This document shows positions 13,560-58,354 of a stretch of DNA of 64,000 bases, piece after piece (within the stretch, counting starts at the first letter, position 1; the number at the start of each line of letters is the position of its first letter). The notes under the pieces are model-generated. The model ran no database searches, was not told where the DNA came from, and worked only from the letters and a program-made list of their open reading frames with translations. The translations under genes were made by a program, and so were the position numbers. This stretch comes from Labrys okinawensis (GTDB lineage Bacteria; Pseudomonadota; Alphaproteobacteria; Rhizobiales; Labraceae), in contig NZ_PUEJ01000002.1 in the NCBI RefSeq assembly GCF_002982075.1, forward strand, positions 62,001 through 126,000. The letters run 5' to 3'.

Positions 13560-16331
13560 TCAGCCCGATTTCCCTTCACCCCGGAACACCGCCAGCAGGT
13601 TGCTGCGGATGCTGTCCTGGCGCTGCAGCGACGTGATCTTCGCCCCGGTAAGGTCGGTGACGTAGAACACGTCGACCGCTTTTTCGCCGAAGGTGGCGAT
13701 ATGGGCCGAGGCGATGTTCAGGTTCAGCCGCGAGATCGCCGTGGTGAGGTCGTAGAGCAGCCCGGGGCGGTCAAGGCCCCAGACCTCCACCACCGTGTGC
13801 CGGTTCGACCATTCATTGTCGACCACCACCTCGGGCGCGACCTGGAAGGCCTTCTGCCGCGGCTTGATGGCGCTGCGCTTGGCTACGGCGTCAGGCAGTC
13901 GGATGGTGCCGGTGAGTGCCTGCTCCATCGCCTGGGCAATGCGCCCCGCCCGGCGCAACTCGTCCTCGTCCTGCGGAAATTCACGGCTGACGAAGATGGT
14001 GTCGAGCGCCAGGCCATCCGTGGTGGTGTTGATCTGGGCATCGACGATGTTGGCCCCGGAAGCCGCGCAGGCGCCCGTGATGATCGACAACAGGCGCGGA
14101 TGGTCGGGGGCGAGGATGGTCAGTTCGGTCACGCCGCGGAAGGCATCGGTGGCGACCTCGGTGCCGAGCGTCTCGCCGCGCTCGCGCACGGCCCGCACGA
14201 AGCGGGCGTGGCGCAGCCGCCGCGGCAGGTCCACCTTGAGCCAATAGGGCGGATACAGGCGCGCCACATAGGCATCGACCTCCGCCTTGCTCCAGTCGGA
14301 CAGGCCGGCCCTCAGTTCGTCCTGGGACAACTGCACGCTGGCGCGCCGGTCCACATTCGAATGGCCGCCGGCCAGCACCAGCTCGGTCTCCCAGAACAGC
14401 GAGCGCAGGAGCTGGCCCTTCCAGCCGTTCCACACGCCCGGCCCCACCGCCCGGATGTCGGCCACGGTGAGGATGAGCAGCAGCTTGAGGCGCTCCAGCG
14501 TCTGTACCGTGCCCGCGAAGGTCTCGATGGTCTTGCGGTCGGAAATGTCGCGGGACTGCGCCGTCATCGACATCACCAGGTGCTGCTCGATCAGCCAGGA
14601 GACCGTATCCGTCTGGGCCGGGGTGAGGCCGAGGCGAGGCCCCAGCTTCTTGGCGATCCTGGCGCCGGCGAGCGAGTGATCCTCCGGCCTGCCCTTGGCG
14701 ATGTCGTGGAGGAAGGTGGCGACATAGAGGGCGGTACGGTTCTGGATGCTCGGCATGATCTCGTTGACGAGAGGATGCTCGTCGCCGCCCTCGCCGCGAT
14801 CGATGTCGGCGAGCTCGCCGACCGACCGCAGCAGATGCTCGTCCACGGTGTAGCGGTGATACATGTTGAACTGCATCATCGCCACGACCTTGCCGAAATC
14901 GGGGATGAAACGGCCGAGCACGCCGGCTTCGTTCATGCGCCGGAGCACGGTCTCGGGCGCATTGCGCGAGGTCAGGATCTCCAGGAACAGCCGGTTGGCC
15001 TCGGCGTTCTCGCGCAGTGCCGCGTTCACCAGTTTGAGCGAGCGGGTGACGAGGCGCATCGCGTCGGGATGCAAGGCGAGGGAATGCAGGTCGGCAAGGT
15101 GGAACAGGCGGATCAGGTTGACGGGGTCGCGCGCGAACACCTGGTCGTTGGCGACGTTGAGCCGGCCTGTCTCAATCACGAAATCCTTGGTGCCGATCAG
15201 GGCCTGGCGCTGACTGCGGCGGAAGGGAGCGATGAAGCGGTCCAGCATCGCCTTGGGCTTTTCCTGGCGCGCCTCCAGCGCCGCGCAGACGATGGCCGTG
15301 AGATCCCCGACATCCTTGGCGACCAGGAAATAGTGCTTCATGAACCGCTCGACACCGCGCAGGCCCCCGCGGTCCGCATAGCCCAGAAAGGTCGCTATCT
15401 CGCGCTGGGTGTCGAAGGTCAGGCGCTCCTCGGGCCGGCGGGTGAGGAAATGGAGGGCGCAGCGCGTCGCCCACAGAAAGTCCTCGGCCAGGGTGAACTG
15501 GCGATATTCGCGCCGGGTGAACAGGCCGGCCTCGACGAGATCGGCGGCATCCCTGACGCGATAGACATATTTGGCGATCCAATAGAGCGTGTTGAGATCG
15601 CGCAGGCCCCCCTTGCCTTCCTTGACGTTGGGCTCGACGCGGTAGCGCGAGTTGCCGGCCTTGATCAGGCGCTCGTCGCGCTCGGCGAGCTTGGCGGCCA
15701 CGAACTCGGCCGCGGTAAGCTGGACGAGCTCGCGGTCGAAACGGGCGGCGAGCTCCGCGGCCAGCCCCATGTCGCCGAGGATCGGACGCGCCTCGAGCAA
15801 GGCGGTGCGGATGGTCATGTCGCCGCGGGCGAGGCGCAGGCACTCGTCGATCGTGCGGGTGGCATGGCCGACCTTCTGCCCGAGATCCCACAAGACGTAG
15901 AGGATGGCTTCGGTGACGCTCTCGCCCCAGGCCGTCTGCTTGGCCGGCAGCAGGAACAAGAGATCGATGTCCGAACCCGGCGCGAGAGTGCCGCGGCCAT
16001 AGCCGCCCACCGCGATGACGGCCATGCGCTCGCCTGCCGTCGGATTGTGGGTGGTATAGACGTAGCGCGTCACATAGGCGTAGCTGGCGCGGATGATCTC
16101 GTCCTCGAGCCAGGACAGGCGCTGGGCGCAGGCGGTGCCGAGACGGTCCTCGCTGAACCAGGTTCGGATGGTCTCGCGGCCGTCCCGCAAGGTTGTCTTG
16201 AGCAGGGTGACCACCGCCAGGCGCAAGGCGTCGGCATGCCCCTCATGCTCCAGCGCCAAGGCGTCGATCTCGGCTTCGAGCGCCATACGGTCGAGGACGA
16301 GGTGGAGCTCACGATTGGGCTTGTCGAGCAT
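13560..16331 (-). CDS. glnD: [Protein-PII] uridylyltransferase/uridylyl-removing enzyme GlnD
   Basis: From ATG 16331 (AAGG six bases upstream) the protein is 923 residues, normal for GlnD. The nucleotidyltransferase motif GGYGRGTLAPGSDID lies at residues 109-123. A central HD domain shows FLHDIAKGRPEDHS. Two C-terminal ACT domains follow (around ELTILAPDHPRLLSII and EVWGLDRPGLLYDL). GlnD senses glutamine and uridylylates or de-uridylylates PII, controlling nitrogen assimilation. A longer frame to 16379 runs into a repeat and is rejected. It lies downstream of mutS on the same strand, separated by a 311-base repeat-filled gap. Confidence 0.96.
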   Translation of the reverse strand: MLDKPNRELHLVLDRMALEAEIDALALEHEGHADALRLAVVTLLKTTLRDGRETIRTWFSEDRLGTACAQRLSWLEDEIIRASYAYVTRYVYTTHNPTAGERMAVIAVGGYGRGTLAPGSDIDLLFLLPAKQTAWGESVTEAILYVLWDLGQKVGHATRTIDECLRLARGDMTIRTALLEARPILGDMGLAAELAARFDRELVQLTAAEFVAAKLAERDERLIKAGNSRYRVEPNVKEGKGGLRDLNTLYWIAKYVYRVRDAADLVEAGLFTRREYRQFTLAEDFLWATRCALHFLTRRPEERLTFDTQREIATFLGYADRGGLRGVERFMKHYFLVAKDVGDLTAIVCAALEARQEKPKAMLDRFIAPFRRSQRQALIGTKDFVIETGRLNVANDQVFARDPVNLIRLFHLADLHSLALHPDAMRLVTRSLKLVNAALRENAEANRLFLEILTSRNAPETVLRRMNEAGVLGRFIPDFGKVVAMMQFNMYHRYTVDEHLLRSVGELADIDRGEGGDEHPLVNEIMPSIQNRTALYVATFLHDIAKGRPEDHSLAGARIAKKLGPRLGLTPAQTDTVSWLIEQHLVMSMTAQSRDISDRKTIETFAGTVQTLERLKLLLILTVADIRAVGPGVWNGWKGQLLRSLFWETELVLAGGHSNVDRRASVQLSQDELRAGLSDWSKAEVDAYVARLYPPYWLKVDLPRRLRHARFVRAVRERGETLGTEVATDAFRGVTELTILAPDHPRLLSIITGACAASGANIVDAQINTTTDGLALDTIFVSREFPQDEDELRRAGRIAQAMEQALTGTIRLPDAVAKRSAIKPRQKAFQVAPEVVVDNEWSNRHTVVEVWGLDRPGLLYDLTTAISRLNLNIASAHIATFGEKAVDVFYVTDLTGAKITSLQRQDSIRSNLLAVFRGEGKSG

Positions 16332-50385: not shown

Positions 50386-51007
50386 CGATGTCTCCCGGTC
50401 TGGGTTATGGCAAGTAACGCCCATGGCCTAGAGTCTGTATGGCCTTTGTCAGGTCAAACATGGAACTGCTGCGACCGGCGGCTTCCGGTCCCCACGGACG
50501 AACTCGAACACCCCTCGTCCGGGTGCCCGGAACGAGCCGGGCGCGGCAAACGTCGCGCTATGGCATATAGCCTCAACCCGCCACGATCCCGGCGGTTCCC
50601 CGCTGCGATCAATTTCCTTCCCGCTCGGCGGAGCACCTCTGGGAGGCGGATGCGCGACCCGGTTAAGATAGGGTGAGAGAGACAGATTTCAACCAAAATC
50701 GACATCTCAAAGCGCTTTGAGTGCGACCATCTTTGAATGACCGACAAGAGTCCGGCCGCTTAGGCATGTTATTTTGGGCATCTCGGATGCGTTCACGGGA
50801 GGCCGGCAAAGTGCGGAAACAGGCGATGGCACCGAGGCTGGAACCTTCCGCCCCAGGGACACGTTTTTCAGGGCCGACGCGTTCATGACCGGACGCTTGT
50901 TTGCCCTTGTTTCTTGTTTCCAAGGCCAATCCAACCGATTGGCTGGAGCGTTTTGCGATCCTTGATGCTTCCGTCTGATCACAAAACGCCTTAGAATTCA
51001 TGTTCGG
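50386..51007. other. 622-base intergenic region
   Basis: No gene is supported. The only recognisable structure is a family A stem at 50946-50992 (GAGCGTTTTGCGATC facing GATCACAAAACGCC), close to the hybrid kinase start. A partial GGAAC-N17-CGTC at 50526-50551 was considered as an EcfG promoter and not accepted. Confidence 0.6.
50946..50992. repeat. Family A partial copy 6
   Basis: Only the first stem of family A is present: GAGCGTTTTGCGATC at the left and GATCACAAAACGCC at the right. Here the right arm complements the left rather than matching the usual AATCGCAAAGACGC. It lies about 15 bases before the hybrid kinase start. Confidence 0.65.
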
Positions 51008-53044
51008 ATGCGGATGGGAACACAGCCCGATGGCAGGGCAGTGATCGTGGTGGGTACAATGGAGTTTCGACGCCATCTCGTCCTCAACCTCGACGACCAC
51101 GCCGACGAAAGGCGTGCCAAGACCGAGGCCCTTGGCCGGGCGATAGAAATCGAAGTGATCGAGGCAGGCACGGGCTTCGATGGCCTCGTTCTGATCCGCG
51201 AGAGACGTCCGACGCTGGTGCTTCTCGAAGAGAGGCTGCCCGACATGAGCGGCCATGATCTATGCCGCATCATCAAGCAGGATTATCCCGAGACCCTGGT
51301 CCTGCAGACCTCGGCGTCCTTCGTTTCGGGCGACAATCGCATGCGGGCTCTGGAAGCCGGCGCCGATTCCTGCCTCGCCCAGCCTTGGGAACCGGTCGAA
51401 CTCCTCGCCTCCGTCCGCGCTTTGCTGCGCATCCGCGCGGCCGAGACGGCCCTGCGCGAAAGCGAAGCCAATTTCCGCACCCTCGCGGACAATATCCCGA
51501 TCCTGTGTTGGATGGCCGCCGCGCATGGCGGCATCTATTGGTACAATCAGCGATGGTATGATTATACAGGCTCCTCATTCGAGCAAATGCAGGGGTGGGG
51601 CTGGCGCTCGGTGCATGACCGCGCGAAACTACCCCAGGTCATCGCCCGCTGGAGGGAGTCGCTCGAACAGGGCAGCGCCTTCGAGATGGTCTTCCCACTC
51701 CGCGGCAGAGACGGCATCTTTCGCCCCTTCCTTACCCGCGTCGCTCCGGTCAGGGACGACACCGGCCGGATCCTGCGCTGGTTCGGCACCAACACCGACA
51801 TTTCCAAGCAGACAGAAGCGGAGGCAGAGCTTCGCGAACTCAACGAGACGCTGGAGCAGCGGGTCCAAGCCGCCATCGCCGCCCGGGCCGCGGCTGAGAA
51901 CAGCCTGCATCAGTTGCAGAAGGTCGAGGCCCTCGGGCAGCTCACCGGCGGTATTGCCCATGATTTCAACAATATGCTGGCCGTGGTCATCGGCGGCCTC
52001 ACTTTGCTCAAGCGCAAGCTCGACCGCGGCCAGACCAATGTCGGGCGCTATATCGACGGCGCTCTCGATGGCGCCGAGCGCGCCGCTGCGCTGACCAAGC
52101 GCCTGCTCGCCTTCTCCCGCCAACAGCCGCTGACGGTGGAAGCCGTGTCGCCGAATGTGATGATCGCCGACATGACCGATCTCTTGTCGCGCACGCTCGG
52201 TGAGCATATCCACATCACCACCATCCTGGCGCCGGATGCCTGGGCGGTGGAGACCGACAGGAGCCAGCTGGAAAACGCCCTGCTCAACATGTCGGTGAAT
52301 GCCCGCGACGCCATGCCCGATGGCGGCGAACTCACCATCGAGACCTGCAACACCATGCTGGGCCGCACCCAGGCCGAGGAATTCGGCATCGCGGCCGGCC
52401 CCTATCTCAGCGTGGCGGTAATGGATACGGGCATCGGCATGTCGGAAGAGGTGGCCGCTCGCGCCTTCGACCCCTTCTTCACCACCAAGGGCGTGGGCAA
52501 GGGCACCGGCATGGGGCTCAGCCAGGTCTTCGGCTTCGTGCGCCAGACCGGCGGCCATGTCACCATCGCATCGACACCGGGACAGGGCACCACCATCAGG
52601 CTGTATTTGCCGCGCTCCGAAGCGGCCGAAGCCCAGCGTCCGCTCTGGGATGGGCTTTCCGCCACCTTCCACGGCCATCCCGGCGAAACCGTGCTGGTGG
52701 TGGAGGACGAGGACAGGGTGCGCTCCATGGCGGTGGAGGCCTTGAGCGGGCTCGGCTATACCATTCTGGAAGCTGCCTCCCCGAGCGAGGCGCTCGGTTT
52801 CGTCGCGGCGGGCCGGCCGATCACCTTGCTGTTCACGGATATCGTCATGCCCGGGATGAATGGCGGCGAACTCGCGAGCCGCGCCCGGGCTCATTCCCCC
52901 GGCATCAAGGTGCTGTTCACCACCGGTTATGCCCCTGACGACAATGGCGCGGTGGACATTCCAGGCCTCGACACCAGGCCACTCTACAAACCCTATTCGA
53001 TCGACCAGCTGTCACGCCGCGTCCGGGCGGCTATCGACGGATGA
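51008..53044 (+). CDS. Hybrid sensor histidine kinase (pseudo-receiver, PAS, HisKA, HATPase, REC)
   Basis: The 678-residue protein has no membrane helix. Residues 1-135 form a receiver-like domain lacking the N-terminal acidic pair, with Glu74 in place of the phospho-Asp (LLEERLPDMSG). A PAS domain covers about 150-275. HisKA has His318 in GGIAHDFNN. HATPase_c has NARDAMPDGG, DTGIGMS and GTGMGLS. A C-terminal receiver has Asp611 in LLFTDIVMPGMNG. It is thus an intact cytoplasmic hybrid kinase with a degenerate input receiver. Its neighbourhood is the general stress response block, so a role there is possible. Confidence 0.92.
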   Translation: MRMGTQPDGRAVIVVGTMEFRRHLVLNLDDHADERRAKTEALGRAIEIEVIEAGTGFDGLVLIRERRPTLVLLEERLPDMSGHDLCRIIKQDYPETLVLQTSASFVSGDNRMRALEAGADSCLAQPWEPVELLASVRALLRIRAAETALRESEANFRTLADNIPILCWMAAAHGGIYWYNQRWYDYTGSSFEQMQGWGWRSVHDRAKLPQVIARWRESLEQGSAFEMVFPLRGRDGIFRPFLTRVAPVRDDTGRILRWFGTNTDISKQTEAEAELRELNETLEQRVQAAIAARAAAENSLHQLQKVEALGQLTGGIAHDFNNMLAVVIGGLTLLKRKLDRGQTNVGRYIDGALDGAERAAALTKRLLAFSRQQPLTVEAVSPNVMIADMTDLLSRTLGEHIHITTILAPDAWAVETDRSQLENALLNMSVNARDAMPDGGELTIETCNTMLGRTQAEEFGIAAGPYLSVAVMDTGIGMSEEVAARAFDPFFTTKGVGKGTGMGLSQVFGFVRQTGGHVTIASTPGQGTTIRLYLPRSEAAEAQRPLWDGLSATFHGHPGETVLVVEDEDRVRSMAVEALSGLGYTILEAASPSEALGFVAAGRPITLLFTDIVMPGMNGGELASRARAHSPGIKVLFTTGYAPDDNGAVDIPGLDTRPLYKPYSIDQLSRRVRAAIDG

Positions 53045-53085: not shown

Positions 53086-53123
53086 CGGAATGGGGGAGGA
53101 ACCCAGGTTCCTCCCCCATTCCG
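53086..53123. terminator. Bidirectional 18-base-pair hairpin
   Basis: CGGAATGGGGGAGGAACC at 53086-53103 is perfectly complementary to 53106-53123 with two bases between. It lies between the 3' ends of the hybrid kinase and the convergent small gene, as expected of a bidirectional terminator, although no T-run follows on either side. Confidence 0.65.
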
Positions 53124-53145
53124 TCCTACTTGCTATGAAACGGGC

Positions 53146-53552: not shown

Positions 53553-55283
53553 TCAGCCTCCGGCGGACACCCCGACATTCGGATCACCGCCCCGGTCCTG
53601 CACCTGTTTCTCACCCCCGCCGGCGACGACGAGCTCCCAGGCACCCAGGTTGCCCGCGGCGAGGTCCTTCGTCTCGGCCGCGTCAAGCTGCTGCACCAGG
53701 CCCAGCAGGATGCGCGAGGGCCGCGGCGCTTCGACCGGCCTGTCGGCGGAAAAGCCGAAACCGAATCGCCCGCCATCGAGATCCGCGATCTCGAGCGTGA
53801 GGGCGAGCGCCAAACCGGCGTGCAGGATGGCAGAGGCATGGTCGACCACGAGCAGGCCGAGGGGGATGGCGCGATCCACGGGCAGCGCCATGTCGGTCCG
53901 GCCGCGTAAAATCATGGCCTGCCCGGGGCGGCAGAGCAGCCTGCCGATCACCAGCGTCACGTCGCGCAGGAAAGGCTCGACCGCCACCGGATGCATCTCG
54001 CCCTCCGACAGGGCGCCGCGATAGGCCGCCGACAGCACGTGAACCCGGCACTCGGCCTCGCTCAAGGCCATGCGTGCGTCGCCGGCATAGGCGTTCTTGG
54101 ACAGGCCGATATAGCTCTGCACCACCTGGAGATTGTTCTTCACGCGGTGATGAAGTTCGCGGGTAAGGGCATGGTTGGCTGCGAGCGCCGTCTGCAGCCG
54201 GTGCTCGCGAGCTTCCTGCTCCTCGACCATATCATTGAAAGCCACCACGACATTGCGGATGTCCGACGGCATCTGGGCGCTGAGCGGCACCCGTCCCCAG
54301 CCGGAGTGACGACGGGCGCGGGACGCAGCCTCGATGCCCTTGAGCCATTGCACCAGATGCCGCTTCATCACCCGGGCAAAGACGACCAGCAGCAACAGCA
54401 GCGCGGCGAGGGGCGCCAGCAGCAGGAAAAGGAATTGCGAGCGTGCTGCCCGCAGATGGATGTCGCGGAAGCTTGCGATGATATAAAGATCGGGGGCCGC
54501 CGGCATGGCGTAGTAGATCCGCGTCTGGCCGGCGTCACTGACGGCCACCCAGCGCTGCCGGGTGCCGGGAATGGTTCCCTTGCCCGGCAGCCAGCTATTG
54601 TCGACGGCCGGCCGCCCCCGCGCAAATACGATGTCCTCATGCAGGGTGATCAGGGCGGCAACGAAATCGCGATCGCCCTCGCCGAGATTGAAAACGCGAT
54701 CGAGAGCCTGCGGGGCGACCACCAGCAGCGCCCGCCAGCCCGGCGCATCCGGCTTGCCCTCGCGCCGGGCATAGACCACGAGCCGGCGCTCGCCAGCGAG
54801 CACCACCGAATCGTAGCGGCTGGTTACCGGTGACAACACGGCCCGGGGCTGAATGACCGGCTTGCCGGCCTGCGCCTCCAGTTCTGCAGCGAGTGCGGCC
54901 TGGTCGAGACCGGACACGCCGGAAAACAGGCAGGCCGGGCCGCCATCCCCCTGGATCAACAATGCCTGATAGCCGTCGAGCTGCCCGACATTGGCCTTGC
55001 CGACCGCGTCGCAGGAGGCCCCCGCCGTGACCTCGGCAGCCGAGATCATCAGGCCGCGCAGCACGCCGACATACCAGATGTTCATGCGGACGACGAAATT
55101 GCCGACCGTCTGCGCCTGGGAGGTCTCGATCGTCTTGACATCGTCGCGATAGGTCACCACCGCGATAATGCTGGTGATGGCGCCGACCGGTATGGCAACC
55201 ATCAGAAAGAAGGTCAGCAGCTTGGCCTGGACGGTATCGAAGGCCAAGATCTTATTGAAGACATGGCGAAAGCGCGCCGTCAC
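53553..55283 (-). CDS. HisKA_2-type membrane sensor with degenerate ATPase domain, in the GSR operon
   Basis: The 576-residue protein starts at GTG 55283, overlapping the ecfG stop (GTGA). Two membrane helices (about 22-46 and 284-304) flank a periplasmic sensor region. A HAMP-like linker (about 305-360) leads to a HisKA_2 box with the phospho-acceptor His379 (ELHHRVKNNLQ). The following ATPase region lacks the expected N-box Asn (LGLLVVDHASAILHAGL instead of a VNELVTNA-like block) and has no DxGxG motif. It may thus not be a kinase. PhyP of Sphingomonas, a HisKA_2 protein that dephosphorylates PhyR, is a recalled precedent. Confidence 0.85.
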   Translation of the reverse strand: MTARFRHVFNKILAFDTVQAKLLTFFLMVAIPVGAITSIIAVVTYRDDVKTIETSQAQTVGNFVVRMNIWYVGVLRGLMISAAEVTAGASCDAVGKANVGQLDGYQALLIQGDGGPACLFSGVSGLDQAALAAELEAQAGKPVIQPRAVLSPVTSRYDSVVLAGERRLVVYARREGKPDAPGWRALLVVAPQALDRVFNLGEGDRDFVAALITLHEDIVFARGRPAVDNSWLPGKGTIPGTRQRWVAVSDAGQTRIYYAMPAAPDLYIIASFRDIHLRAARSQFLFLLLAPLAALLLLLVVFARVMKRHLVQWLKGIEAASRARRHSGWGRVPLSAQMPSDIRNVVVAFNDMVEEQEAREHRLQTALAANHALTRELHHRVKNNLQVVQSYIGLSKNAYAGDARMALSEAECRVHVLSAAYRGALSEGEMHPVAVEPFLRDVTLVIGRLLCRPGQAMILRGRTDMALPVDRAIPLGLLVVDHASAILHAGLALALTLEIADLDGGRFGFGFSADRPVEAPRPSRILLGLVQQLDAAETKDLAAGNLGAWELVVAGGGEKQVQDRGGDPNVGVSAGG

Positions 55284-55837
55284 AAGGGTGGCTCGCGTCC
55301 GCCGACCCGCAGCGCCGCCAGCATCTTGGCATCCGGCCCGGTTTCATCCACGTCGCTGGTCGAGAGCATCTCGGCCAGCCGCGATCTCGCCCGGTTGACG
55401 CGGCTCTTGATGGTGCCGAGCGCCACGCCGCAGATCTCGGCGGCCTCCTCATAGGAAATGCCCGAGGCACCCACCATGATCAGGGCCTCGCGCTGCTCCT
55501 CGGGAAGCTTGGCGAGCGCCGCCGCGAAATCGGCCACCGCCAGATGCCCTTCCTGGTCGGCATGGACGGCCAGACGCTCGGCATAGACCCCGTCGCTGTC
55601 CTGCACCTCACGCGAACGTTTGCGGTAGAGAGAGTAGTAGATGTTGCGCAGGATGGTGAACAGCCAAGCCCGCATATTGGTGCCTGGCTCGAATTTGTCG
55701 GCATTGGCCCAGGCCTTCAGCAGCGTATCCTGCACCAGATCGTCCGCCAGGGTAATCGACCCCGACAGGGAGGCGGCGAAGGCACGCAGGCTGGGGATAT
55801 GTGCGACGAGCCCGTCCTTGAAGCTATCGCCGCTCAT
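55280..55837 (-). CDS. ecfG: General stress response ECF sigma factor EcfG
   Basis: The 185-residue protein has sigma regions 2 (SGSITLADDLVQDTLLKAWAN, NMRAWLFTILRNIYYS) and 4 (LPEEQREALIMVGASGISYEEAAEICGVALGTIKSRVNRARSRL), the pattern of the EcfG group. It recognises GGAAC-N16/17-CGTT promoters when freed from NepR. Its start overlaps the nepR end by 14 bases, and its stop overlaps the sensor gene start, so the three genes are coupled. Confidence 0.94.
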   Translation of the reverse strand: MSGDSFKDGLVAHIPSLRAFAASLSGSITLADDLVQDTLLKAWANADKFEPGTNMRAWLFTILRNIYYSLYRKRSREVQDSDGVYAERLAVHADQEGHLAVADFAAALAKLPEEQREALIMVGASGISYEEAAEICGVALGTIKSRVNRARSRLAEMLSTSDVDETGPDAKMLAALRVGGREPPL

Positions 55838-56045
55838 CGTCCTTGCCCTCCCCGGCCTTCTTCTCCTGCTCTTCGAGCTCGGCCAGGAGCGTCAAAAACC
55901 TGTCGGGCACGGGTGCCCGGATGATTGATTCATAATGAGCCTGCAGGGAGCGAGCGACATAGTCTCGAATCTGCGGATCGAGCTTGCCGCCGCCGGGAGA
56001 GCTCTGATCGGGCAGATCCTCGTCTGGCTTCTTGTTCCTCGACAT
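55824..56045 (-). CDS. nepR: Anti-sigma factor NepR
   Basis: From ATG 56045 the protein is 73 residues. The central segment DPQIRDYVARSLQAHYESIIRAPVPDRFLTLLAELE contains the NepR family core (helices alpha1 and alpha2, given here in part: LQAHYESIIRAPVPDRF). NepR binds EcfG until phosphorylated PhyR takes it away. The longer open frame upstream is noncoding. A GGAAC-N17-CGTT promoter lies about 200 bases upstream. Confidence 0.93.
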   Translation of the reverse strand: MSRNKKPDEDLPDQSSPGGGKLDPQIRDYVARSLQAHYESIIRAPVPDRFLTLLAELEEQEKKAGEGKDDERR

Positions 56046-56251
56046 TACTACTCCCGTAAAACGGCCTGGCACCGCCATCGCTTCCAAGCAGTTTCCCCGC
56101 GCGTCGCAATGGGCACGTTCGCGAGGGACCTGCAAGATACCGACCATTTGCAGAGTTCCTGGATAAGGTCCACCATGGGCCTTTCCGCGAATGCTGCTTG
56201 GGCTGGCTGGAAACCCAACGTCGGTGAAGATCATGCAATGCCAACCGGCGA

Positions 56252-56277
56252 AACGCATCCCATGCCGAATACGTTCC
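56252..56277 (-). promoter_or_regulatory. EcfG-dependent promoter of the nepR-ecfG operon
   Basis: On the minus strand GGAAC (56277-56273) is followed after 17 bases by CGTT (56255-56252), the general stress response promoter consensus. It faces nepR, whose start is about 207 bases downstream, consistent with positive autoregulation of ecfG. No equivalent promoter facing phyR was found. Confidence 0.8.
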
Positions 56278-56367
56278 ATGCTGTCGACGAAATAAATTCA
56301 TTGTCAGGAACTATTCGTCTGTGGTGCTCTTCCGAGTCGCATGAGCGACCGATTGGGAGCATGTTCA

Positions 56368-57159
56368 ATGTCGATCGCAGCCGAGATAGCGCCGCAACTG
56401 CCTTATCTGAGGCGTTTTTCCCGAGCCCTGAGCGGCAGCCAGGCCAGCGGGGACGCCTATGTGGTGGAGACGCTCGAGGCCCTGGTTGCCGATCCCGGCT
56501 CCTTTCCGCGCGACCTGCCGCCGCGCATCGCGCTCTATCAGGTGTTCCTGAGATTGTGGTCTTCCCTCGCCCTGAACATGGAACCGGCCAAGCAGGTCGA
56601 GGGCATTTCGCCGGAACAGCGCCTGGAACGCCTGGCTCCGCGCTCGCGCCAGGCCTTTCTGCTGACCACGATGGAGGGCTTTTCCTCGGAAGAAGCCGCC
56701 ACCGTCATGCGTGTCGACGAGAAGGAAGTCATCATCCTGGTGACCGAGGCAACCGAGGAGGTGGCCCGCCAGATCGCAACCGAGATCCTGATCATCGAGG
56801 ATGAGCCGATCATCGCGCTCGATCTGCAATCGATCGTGGAAGAGCTGGGACACAGGGTCGTCGGCATCGCGCGCACCCATGCCCAGGCCCTCGCCCAGGT
56901 GGCGGAGCACTCGCCTGGCCTGATTCTCGCCGATATCCAGCTCGCCGACGGCAGCTCCGGCCTGAAAGCGGTGAACGAGATCCTGGCGAGCGTGGAGTTG
57001 CCGGTGATCTTCATCACCGCCTATCCCGAAAGGCTGTTGACCGGGCAGCAGCCGGAACCGACTTTCCTGATCACCAAGCCCTTCCGGCCCGAAATCGTGA
57101 AGGCCACAATCAGCCAAGCCCTGTTTTTCGACAAGCGCGCCAGCCTGCGTTCCACCTGA
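56368..57159 (+). CDS. phyR: General stress response anti-anti-sigma regulator PhyR
   Basis: Started at ATG 56368 with GGGAG eight bases upstream, the protein is 263 residues. Residues 1-130 form the sigma-factor-like domain (IAPQLPYLRRFSRALSGSQASGD). The C-terminal receiver (about 142-260) has the acidic pair in IIEDEPIIALDL, phospho-Asp189 in LADIQLADGSSG, and Lys in LITKPFRP. On phosphorylation its sigma-like domain binds NepR and frees EcfG. It is divergent from nepR, the usual arrangement. Confidence 0.96.
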   Translation: MSIAAEIAPQLPYLRRFSRALSGSQASGDAYVVETLEALVADPGSFPRDLPPRIALYQVFLRLWSSLALNMEPAKQVEGISPEQRLERLAPRSRQAFLLTTMEGFSSEEAATVMRVDEKEVIILVTEATEEVARQIATEILIIEDEPIIALDLQSIVEELGHRVVGIARTHAQALAQVAEHSPGLILADIQLADGSSGLKAVNEILASVELPVIFITAYPERLLTGQQPEPTFLITKPFRPEIVKATISQALFFDKRASLRST

Positions 57160-57204: not shown

Positions 57205-57693
57205 TCAGCTCGCGCGCTCGGCCAAGCCACGCACCTGGCTGACGAATTCGTCGGGATTGAAAGGCTTGCTGACCAGCAGGCAATCGAAATAAAGCCGGCG
57301 CCGCTCCGGCAAGCCAAAGCCCGAAACGAACATGATTTCCAGGCTCGGCCAGCGCTCCCTGGCCTTCAAGGCAAGATCATAGCCGCTCATCGGGCCGGGC
57401 ATGCGGACATCGGTGATCAATACCCGGGCATCGCCGTTCGAGGCCAGGATGTCGAGGGCCGCTTCGGCACGCCCCGCCTGCAGGACCCTGAAGCCGGCAT
57501 CCTCGAGCAGGTCGGCCGTGATCAGCCTGACGTCATTGTCGTCATCGACCAGCACCACGGTCACCGGAGGGGAACTATCGATGTCATCGTGTCCTGATGC
57601 AGTCTCACGACTGTCATGGGCCGGCTTGCGCGAGCCGGTATGGTGTTCCGGCGCATTGTATATGGCCGGTTCGGCGAAGGCTTGCTGTTTCAC
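57205..57693 (-). CDS. Single-domain response regulator
   Basis: The chosen start is GTG 57693 with GAGGGGAC upstream, giving 162 residues. The open frame upstream crosses a family A repeat and the next gene's end and is rejected. After a 50-residue polar N-terminus the receiver shows VVLVDDDNDVRLI, phospho-Asp in VLITDVRMPGPMSGYD and Lys in LLVSKPFNPDEF. No output domain. An EcfG-type promoter lies about 125 bases upstream. It converges on phyR. Confidence 0.85.
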   Translation of the reverse strand: MKQQAFAEPAIYNAPEHHTGSRKPAHDSRETASGHDDIDSSPPVTVVLVDDDNDVRLITADLLEDAGFRVLQAGRAEAALDILASNGDARVLITDVRMPGPMSGYDLALKARERWPSLEIMFVSGFGLPERRRLYFDCLLVSKPFNPDEFVSQVRGLAERAS

Positions 57694-57741
57694 GATTCTT
57701 GTCCCCTCAGGCTCCGTCAGGCTGCCCAGCGGTGGAGGTGC

Positions 57742-57808
57742 ATCGCAAAGGCGTTTCGAAACAACGGGTTGGAGCAGACGGGCGTTCAACCCGAACACGC
57801 TTTGCTCT
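57742..57808. repeat. Family A partial copy 7 in a 5' leader
   Basis: ATCGCAAAGGCGTTTCG, then GGAGCAGACGGGCGTTC and ACACGCTTTGCTCTGG match the right half of the family. It lies between the EcfG-type promoter at 57817-57841 and the start of the response regulator, so it would be transcribed as part of the leader. Confidence 0.75.
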
Positions 57809-57816
57809 GGGGAACG

Positions 57817-57841
57817 AACGCCCAACGCCGGTCTTTGTTCC
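57817..57841 (-). promoter_or_regulatory. EcfG-type promoter of a single-domain response regulator
   Basis: On the minus strand GGAAC (57841-57837) and CGTT (57820-57817) are spaced by 16 bases, matching the consensus exactly. It lies in the gap between two response regulator genes and faces the one at 57205-57693. Confidence 0.75.
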
Positions 57842-57844
57842 GGC

Positions 57845-58222
57845 TCAGCTTGCAGGTAGCATCGAGTAGACCTTGGCCTCGAATTCGCCGGTCTCGAAGG
57901 GCTTGACGATGACGTCTTGACCTTGGTCCATTTCGAGTTCCTGGCGCTCGGCGGCTTCATAGCCGGTGAGGAAGAGCACCTTCAGCGCGGGCCTCGCCTT
58001 GCGTGCCCGCCGGGCCAGGTCCCAGCCGTTCATGCCCGGCAGCCCGATATCCGTAATCAACAGATCGATGCTTTGTGGGCCCTCCAGCAGGGGAATGGCC
58101 GAATCGGCGTCCTTGGCCTCCAGCGTGGCGAAGCCGAGATCGTTCAGGATATCGACGACGAGCAACTGGATGACTGCTTCGTCTTCGACGACGAGAATGG
58201 TCCTCTTGTCGGGATCGGCCAT
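57845..58222 (-). CDS. Single-domain response regulator
   Basis: From ATG 58222 the protein has 125 residues and is a bare receiver: ILVVEDEAVIQLLVVDIL, phospho-Asp in LLITDIGLPGMNGWD, Thr in VLFLTGYEAA and Lys in VIVKPFETGEF. It is similar in shape to the downstream response regulator but not closely alike. A role in phosphorelay with the hybrid kinase or the stress response is inferred from position. Confidence 0.9.
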   Translation of the reverse strand: MADPDKRTILVVEDEAVIQLLVVDILNDLGFATLEAKDADSAIPLLEGPQSIDLLITDIGLPGMNGWDLARRARKARPALKVLFLTGYEAAERQELEMDQGQDVIVKPFETGEFEAKVYSMLPAS

Positions 58223-58354
58223 GCTTGGGATCTCGGGCTCAAATCGAAATTGTTGCCGGAAACCACTTCCGGAACTGAGAATCACTAGCTGCTGAAATGG
58301 GCGCCTCGGGCGCCCGAGCCACTATAGAGATCCGCCGGGAAAACAGGAGCGCGC

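Follow-up and report, generated by a model that had tools for sequence, protein, structure and literature searches.

The Sphingomonas sensor PhyP was re-designated PhyT in 2018, after phosphotransfer had been shown: in the account given by PMC5898713, phosphate passes in vitro from SdrG to the His of PhyT and from there to PhyR, and PhyT binds unphosphorylated PhyR. For PhyK of Caulobacter, the available text of PMC5964349 reports that phosphate is accepted from MrrA and handed to PhyR, that mutants in the ATP boxes of PhyK complement fully in vivo while H371A fails, and that the known donor receivers have the motif PFxFATG(G/Y). The mechanism of ecfG-linked sensors beyond these two model species is called unresolved in PMC5898713, and PMC4438053, PMC12148442 and PMC12354254 do not settle it.

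The window analysed here, 64,000 nucleotides of the Labrys okinawensis genome, contains a PhyT/PhyK-type sensor gene with no ATP-binding site, in an operon with the order nepR, ecfG, sensor on the minus strand and with phyR divergent (Table 1). As the original prediction had it, the GTG start of the sensor overlaps the stop codon of ecfG: TGA and GTG share four bases, GTGA, on the minus strand, and the same four-base overlap is present in the copies of Labrys sp. KNU-23 and WJW, records with about 90% identity to the source Labrys genome. At 11 ortholog loci of other genera, the nearest start is found 4-16 bases past the ecfG stop (one of the 11 has an additional in-frame TTG that overlaps the stop; one extra row of this comparison, L078, is no ortholog and stands outside the 11), thus the overlap itself is not conserved, whereas the tight linkage between ecfG and the sensor is. 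From the GTGA overlap, translational coupling of the sensor to ecfG is plausible. The true start of nepR is suggested to lie further downstream than that of the listed ORF, because its promoter site is inside this ORF, and the true start of RR1 is probably near 57777, because similarity to the KNU-23 protein starts at residue 62.

Table 1 Features of the locus, of its promoters and sensor protein, and of the C11 cluster (window coordinates unless marked otherwise)
Feature	Coordinates	Strand	Evidence or remark
PhyT/PhyK-type sensor without ATP-binding site	53553..55283	-	576 aa, GTG start
ecfG, general-stress sigma factor	55280..55837	-	Pfam and NCBIfam, ECF sigma factor
nepR, anti-sigma factor	55824..56279 (ORF as listed)	-	Pfam NepR, 40.0 bits
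phyR, anti-anti-sigma response regulator, likely phosphate acceptor	56341..57159	+	NCBIfam PhyR family, 365 bits, above cut-off
RR1, receiver protein	57205..57960 (ORF as listed)	-	Pfam; KNU-23 comparison
RR2, lone receiver	57845..58285	-	Pfam Response_reg
Hybrid histidine kinase REC-PAS-HisKA-HATPase-REC, HATPase_c intact, convergent neighbour	51008..53044	+	Pfam and NCBIfam
EcfG-type promoter GGAAC-N17-CGTT of nepR-ecfG-sensor	56252..56277	-	Conserved in KNU-23 and WJW
EcfG-type promoter upstream of RR1	57817..57841	-	Conserved in KNU-23 and WJW
EcfG-type promoter upstream of hybrid kinase	50840..50865	+	Similar site in KNU-23
Fourth exact EcfG-type promoter site	14984-15008	+	Window scan
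HisKA_2 (DHp) domain, residues 376-443	53955..54158	-	Pfam 42.7 bits, cut-off 22.3
Acceptor His379 codon	54147-54149	-	HHRVKNN; HRxxN motif as H379-R-V-K-N
Degenerate CA (ATPase-like) region, residues 446-552	53628..53948	-	Alignments, columns, profile comparison
N-box Asn column, Ala485	53829-53831	-	Alignment with intact relatives
DxGxG column, A513-D-R515	53739-53747	-	Alignment with intact relatives
Sensor region, residues 23-306, probable periplasmic domain	54366..55217	-	Translation read by eye
C11 cluster	Own genome C11:306500-319000 (L095)		HWE kinase frame 313378-314961; receivers 310261-310959, 309470-310078
Second C11 receiver, 202 aa	L095:2974-3579 (frame 309470-310078)	-	Receiver, then sigma region 2-like tail

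Between the convergent genes of the hybrid kinase and the sensor, a G+C-rich, near-perfect inverted repeat is visible by eye at window positions 53090-53126; it is probably a terminator shared by the two genes. When window positions 55280-57159 were compared with the loci L078, L079 and L081-L087, EcfG and PhyR had 65-73% and 63-65% identity to their counterparts in another family, versus 61-66% and 61-62% to the proteins of two further Labrys genomes. In the two Labrys genomes with the more distant EcfG and PhyR, the sensor is absent or comes from another clade, and an exchange of the phyR-ecfG locus within the genus is possible.

Two hydrophobic stretches can be read from the translation of the sensor, at about residues 22-45 and 284-306, one on each side of the probable periplasmic domain. 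The phospho-acceptor that had been predicted, His379 in HHRVKNN, is within the Pfam HisKA_2 match, and the string LLVVDHASAILHAGL, which had been proposed as the region that should hold the N-box Asn, is the right place: in the alignment with box-intact relatives (reference L103, with EALTNVFKHAF, ADNGKG and GLGRSL) the Asn column is occupied by Ala. The same alignment revealed no conserved N- or G-box residues that had been misplaced; A513 and R515 replace the D and G of the DxGxG motif, which had also been reported as absent, the glycines of the second G-box have become P and P, and a deletion has removed the ATP lid. The N-box Asn is retained in each of the genome's four HWE paralogs (HELATNALKYG, HEFATNAAKYG, HELATNAAKYG and, in the fourth, again HELATNAAKYG). 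The hallmarks of an active HisKA_2/HWE kinase, the N-box Asn and DxGxG, are thus absent from the sensor (A485; A513, R515), and three of a PhyT-type protein are present: a phyR-nepR-ecfG locus, HRxxN in a HisKA_2 DHp domain and a degenerate ATPase domain. A Pfam search up to E<=1 returned no match to an ATPase or HATPase family; the match to the NCBIfam PhyK model (NF051872) covers residues 242-445, ending where the His domain ends, and has 91.4 bits, below the curated 750-bit cut-off of this equivalog. Nothing supports an ATPase domain encoded in another frame: the frames of all three Labrys can be aligned over their whole length at low dN/dS, and the relatives show their decay in the same position. 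AlphaFold models of the sensor were unusable (mean pLDDT 34.5 and 43.6, from alignments of three near-identical rows), and a phmmer search of solved structures with the sensor gave no chain at E<=0.01.

A search of 297 genomes of the order identified near-full-length orthologs in 12 genomes outside Labrys. ecfG adjoins the sensor in all 12 of these, phyR is also present in 10, where the fetched stretch reaches far enough, and the arrangement sensor-ecfG-nepR with phyR on the other side is kept in sister genera. In an alignment of 58 rows, all 29 ecfG-linked proteins of the same order are devoid of the N-box Asn, and among the 15 that come from the class's other orders, 11 have it and four have not; these numbers are not a random census, because the relatives were picked by similarity to the sensor and ecfG was looked for no further than the flanking sequence retrieved, in most cases 1.5 kb. 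This class alignment leaves out L108, L111, L112 and L127 (347-481 aa; flank without ecfG) and L078 (a duplicate of L026); L034, with no pathway gene in its flank, is unassigned. When a tree is constructed, the window sensor falls into a clade of 15 rows (100/99) inside a clade of 31 rows without the Asn (97/94). Loss of the Asn requires four changes with all 58 rows and two after leaving out seven long-branch rows; the Asn was likely, if not firmly so, lost repeatedly in independent lineages.

Profile comparison with hhalign connects the C-terminal region of the clade to other PhyK-like proteins (97.2%, E 3.6e-11) and these in turn to intact HWE ATPase domains (70.8%, E 3.8e-5); the direct match between the CA remnant of the clade and intact HWE ATPase domains is weak (8%, 0.004). 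The CA region is an ATPase-type domain in an advanced state of decay, its descent shown via intermediates and not by direct similarity. In the search of the order's genomes, Labrys G050 had no ortholog of the sensor, and an intact HWE kinase adjoins its phyR, indicating that the function of the sensor is not needed genus-wide.

The sensor gene is under purifying selection. By the Nei-Gojobori method, dN/dS between the three Labrys copies is lowest in the linker (0.015-0.024) and the DHp domain with its His (0.025-0.05), higher in the sensor region (0.10-0.14) and the CA remnant (0.10-0.146) and highest in the variable C-terminal tail of 24 residues (553-576; 0.20-0.46). With the frame intact in three Labrys species and dN/dS below 0.15 except for the last 24 residues, the sensor is no broken gene. 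The CA remnant is presumably retained for a role other than ATP, which may be receiver docking or structure.

Exact sites of the form GGAAC-N16/17-CGTT, which we take to be the EcfG-type promoter consensus, occur four times in the window, versus 0.68 expected; none of 100 shuffles reached four. Read in reverse, towards phyR, the site in front of nepR has eight of the nine consensus bases, as if one element served both.

A motif search of the genome gave no exact match for a PFxFATG receiver; therefore, donors were searched with a profile of eight such receivers. This profile identified five lone FATGUY-like receiver genes with an altered motif: one directly behind each of the HWE kinases C15, C2 and C17, and another two some 3 kb away from the C11 kinase. 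The C11 kinase is the only one of the four HWE kinases seen in all three sensor-bearing Labrys, and it is conserved there together with its two receivers (79-86% identity). The C11 clusters of these genomes have 4, 3 and 6 exact GGAAC-N16/17-CGTT sites per 12.5 kb (L095, L128 and L129, respectively), and sequence simulated from the own C11 stretch has a mean of 0.15 sites and never reached four in 300 simulations. In sister genera, six of seven loci have a lone receiver near phyR in which the motif reads PFAFVSGS. Judged by their sequences, the five FATGUY-like receivers, the two of C11 included, and the PFAFVSGS receivers are candidates for phosphate donors to the sensor. RR1 and RR2 were rejected as donors, since the receiver profile gives them 22.0 and 44.1 bits, compared to 79.6-82.5 bits for the three top-scoring receivers from other parts of the genome, and since they have no clear counterpart in sister loci. 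The draft genome of WJW gives two HWE_HK matches, the sensor itself included; with few HWE proteins left in Labrys, the question of the donor becomes testable.

The second C11 receiver, with its sigma2-like tail, is to us the most interesting lead. Ten homologs from three families of the order (L130-L139) were examined: all ten match Pfam PhyR_sigma2 (best E 3.4e-7), eight match Response_reg, and an EcfG-type promoter is found upstream of the gene in all but L132. The profile of the tail matches both EcfG (96.4%, E 1.2e-9) and PhyR (89.8%, 1.8e-6). The sigma2-like tail and the EcfG-type promoters thus mark the protein as a stress-regulon receiver that has the parts of PhyR in reverse order and no sigma region 4; in the literature, judged by titles and abstract openings, we found no description of a receiver followed by sigma2. 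A wider proposal, which we put forward as speculation and regard as doubtful in its entirety, is that the ecfG-linked sensor of this order has generally ceased to function as a kinase and acts on PhyR only as carrier or brake, with the relay in Labrys running via the EcfG-controlled C11 cluster, whose HWE kinase is accompanied by two receivers lacking the FATGUY motif; the REC-sigma2 receiver would be a new kind of regulator, PhyR modules reversed and halved, and could donate phosphate to the sensor and at the same time act as a partial decoy for NepR.

The sensor is probably a phosphotransferase of the PhyT/PhyK type and not a kinase, with phosphate moving from a phosphorylated receiver to His379 and on to PhyR; holding or dephosphorylating PhyR may be a further activity. 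Stress would cause active HWE kinases encoded at other sites of the genome to phosphorylate receiver proteins, the phosphate would reach His379 and then PhyR, and PhyR~P would bind NepR, releasing EcfG, which would transcribe the nepR-ecfG-sensor operon as well; without stress, the sensor may hold or drain PhyR. Phosphotransfer and PhyR binding are transferred to this sensor from its published relatives by analogy, and we infer which protein donates, what signal acts and in which direction control runs. Three findings count against this reading: the genome has no PFxFATG receiver, the CA remnant is linked to HWE ATPase domains only via intermediates, and G050 manages without an ortholog. A sensor that is mainly a brake, binding PhyR and removing or withholding its phosphate (as phosphatase or by sequestration) with no feeding of the pathway, would fit the retained His and the Asn at H+4 (HRVKN); a brake is also the role that was first given to Sphingomonas PhyP, whose loss is tolerated only with an impaired stress response, and PMC5898713, in its available text, leaves a phosphatase mode open. 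We nevertheless consider this unlikely, as transfer of phosphate to PhyR is reported for both biochemically tested relatives (PMC5898713, PMC5964349). The earlier expectation of relay or PhyR dephosphorylation in place of kinase activity agrees with the acceptor His, the lost ATP site and the ecfG operon, and of the two, relay is better supported because PhyT and PhyK have been shown to pass phosphate to PhyR. PhyP, which had been named as precedent, was a sound choice that calls for an update, the protein now being PhyT, with phosphotransfer shown (PMC5898713).

It is improbable that the phosphotransferase is fed by the neighbouring hybrid kinase via the kinase's own receiver domain: seven sensor-keeping loci of sister genera, each 9.5-11 kb long, have no counterpart of this gene. 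CckA and ChpT are the comparison for such a route, phosphate passing there from the hybrid kinase's own receiver domain, and the adjacent gene, which is preceded by an EcfG-type promoter both in the window and in KNU-23, does offer an intact HATPase_c and two receivers. The persisting purifying selection on the CA region could be explained by a sensor that is still an active kinase with non-canonical ATP binding, an idea we find hardly credible: the whole clade is without boxes and lid, and Caulobacter PhyK, with a conserved CA domain, is already without autokinase activity in the account of PMC5964349. Nor does a functionless, decaying remnant, to which the variable tail might point, agree with a reading frame that three Labrys and 12 further genomes have preserved intact, with low dN/dS and with a gene order that is kept; this explanation is very improbable. 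Since the ATP site is lost in all 29 examined proteins of the order, assays of ecfG-linked sensors should treat them as carriers of phosphate or as brakes rather than as kinases.

Compared with the known systems, the Labrys sensor is a new protein of an already known type; what specialists may want to follow is the absence of an ATP site across the sampled order, together with the unusual receivers. PhyT of Sphingomonas melonis Fr1 resembles it, by published description, in the phyR locus, the HRxxN motif and the degenerate ATPase domain, and is membrane-anchored, as the Labrys sensor may be; PhyT is supplied by SdrG, a FATGUY receiver (as described in PMC5898713), whereas the Labrys genome has no exact PFxFATG receiver. 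PhyK of Caulobacter crescentus shares the HisKA_2 acceptor His and is a phosphotransferase to PhyR, but has kept the sequence of its CA domain without using it, as reported in PMC5964349, while that of the Labrys sensor is lost. The soluble PhyK of Brucella ovis, a PAS protein of 335 aa, is of another type (in the description of PMC12354254). RsiC of Sinorhizobium meliloti, Rpal_4707 of Rhodopseudomonas and Bab1_1673 of Brucella are named PhyP-type stress proteins, alike by their description in PMC5898713. The same source gives Spo0B and ChpT as precedents for dimeric phosphotransferases derived from kinases; these too are similar by description, and they serve sporulation and the cell cycle, unlike the general-stress sensor of Labrys.
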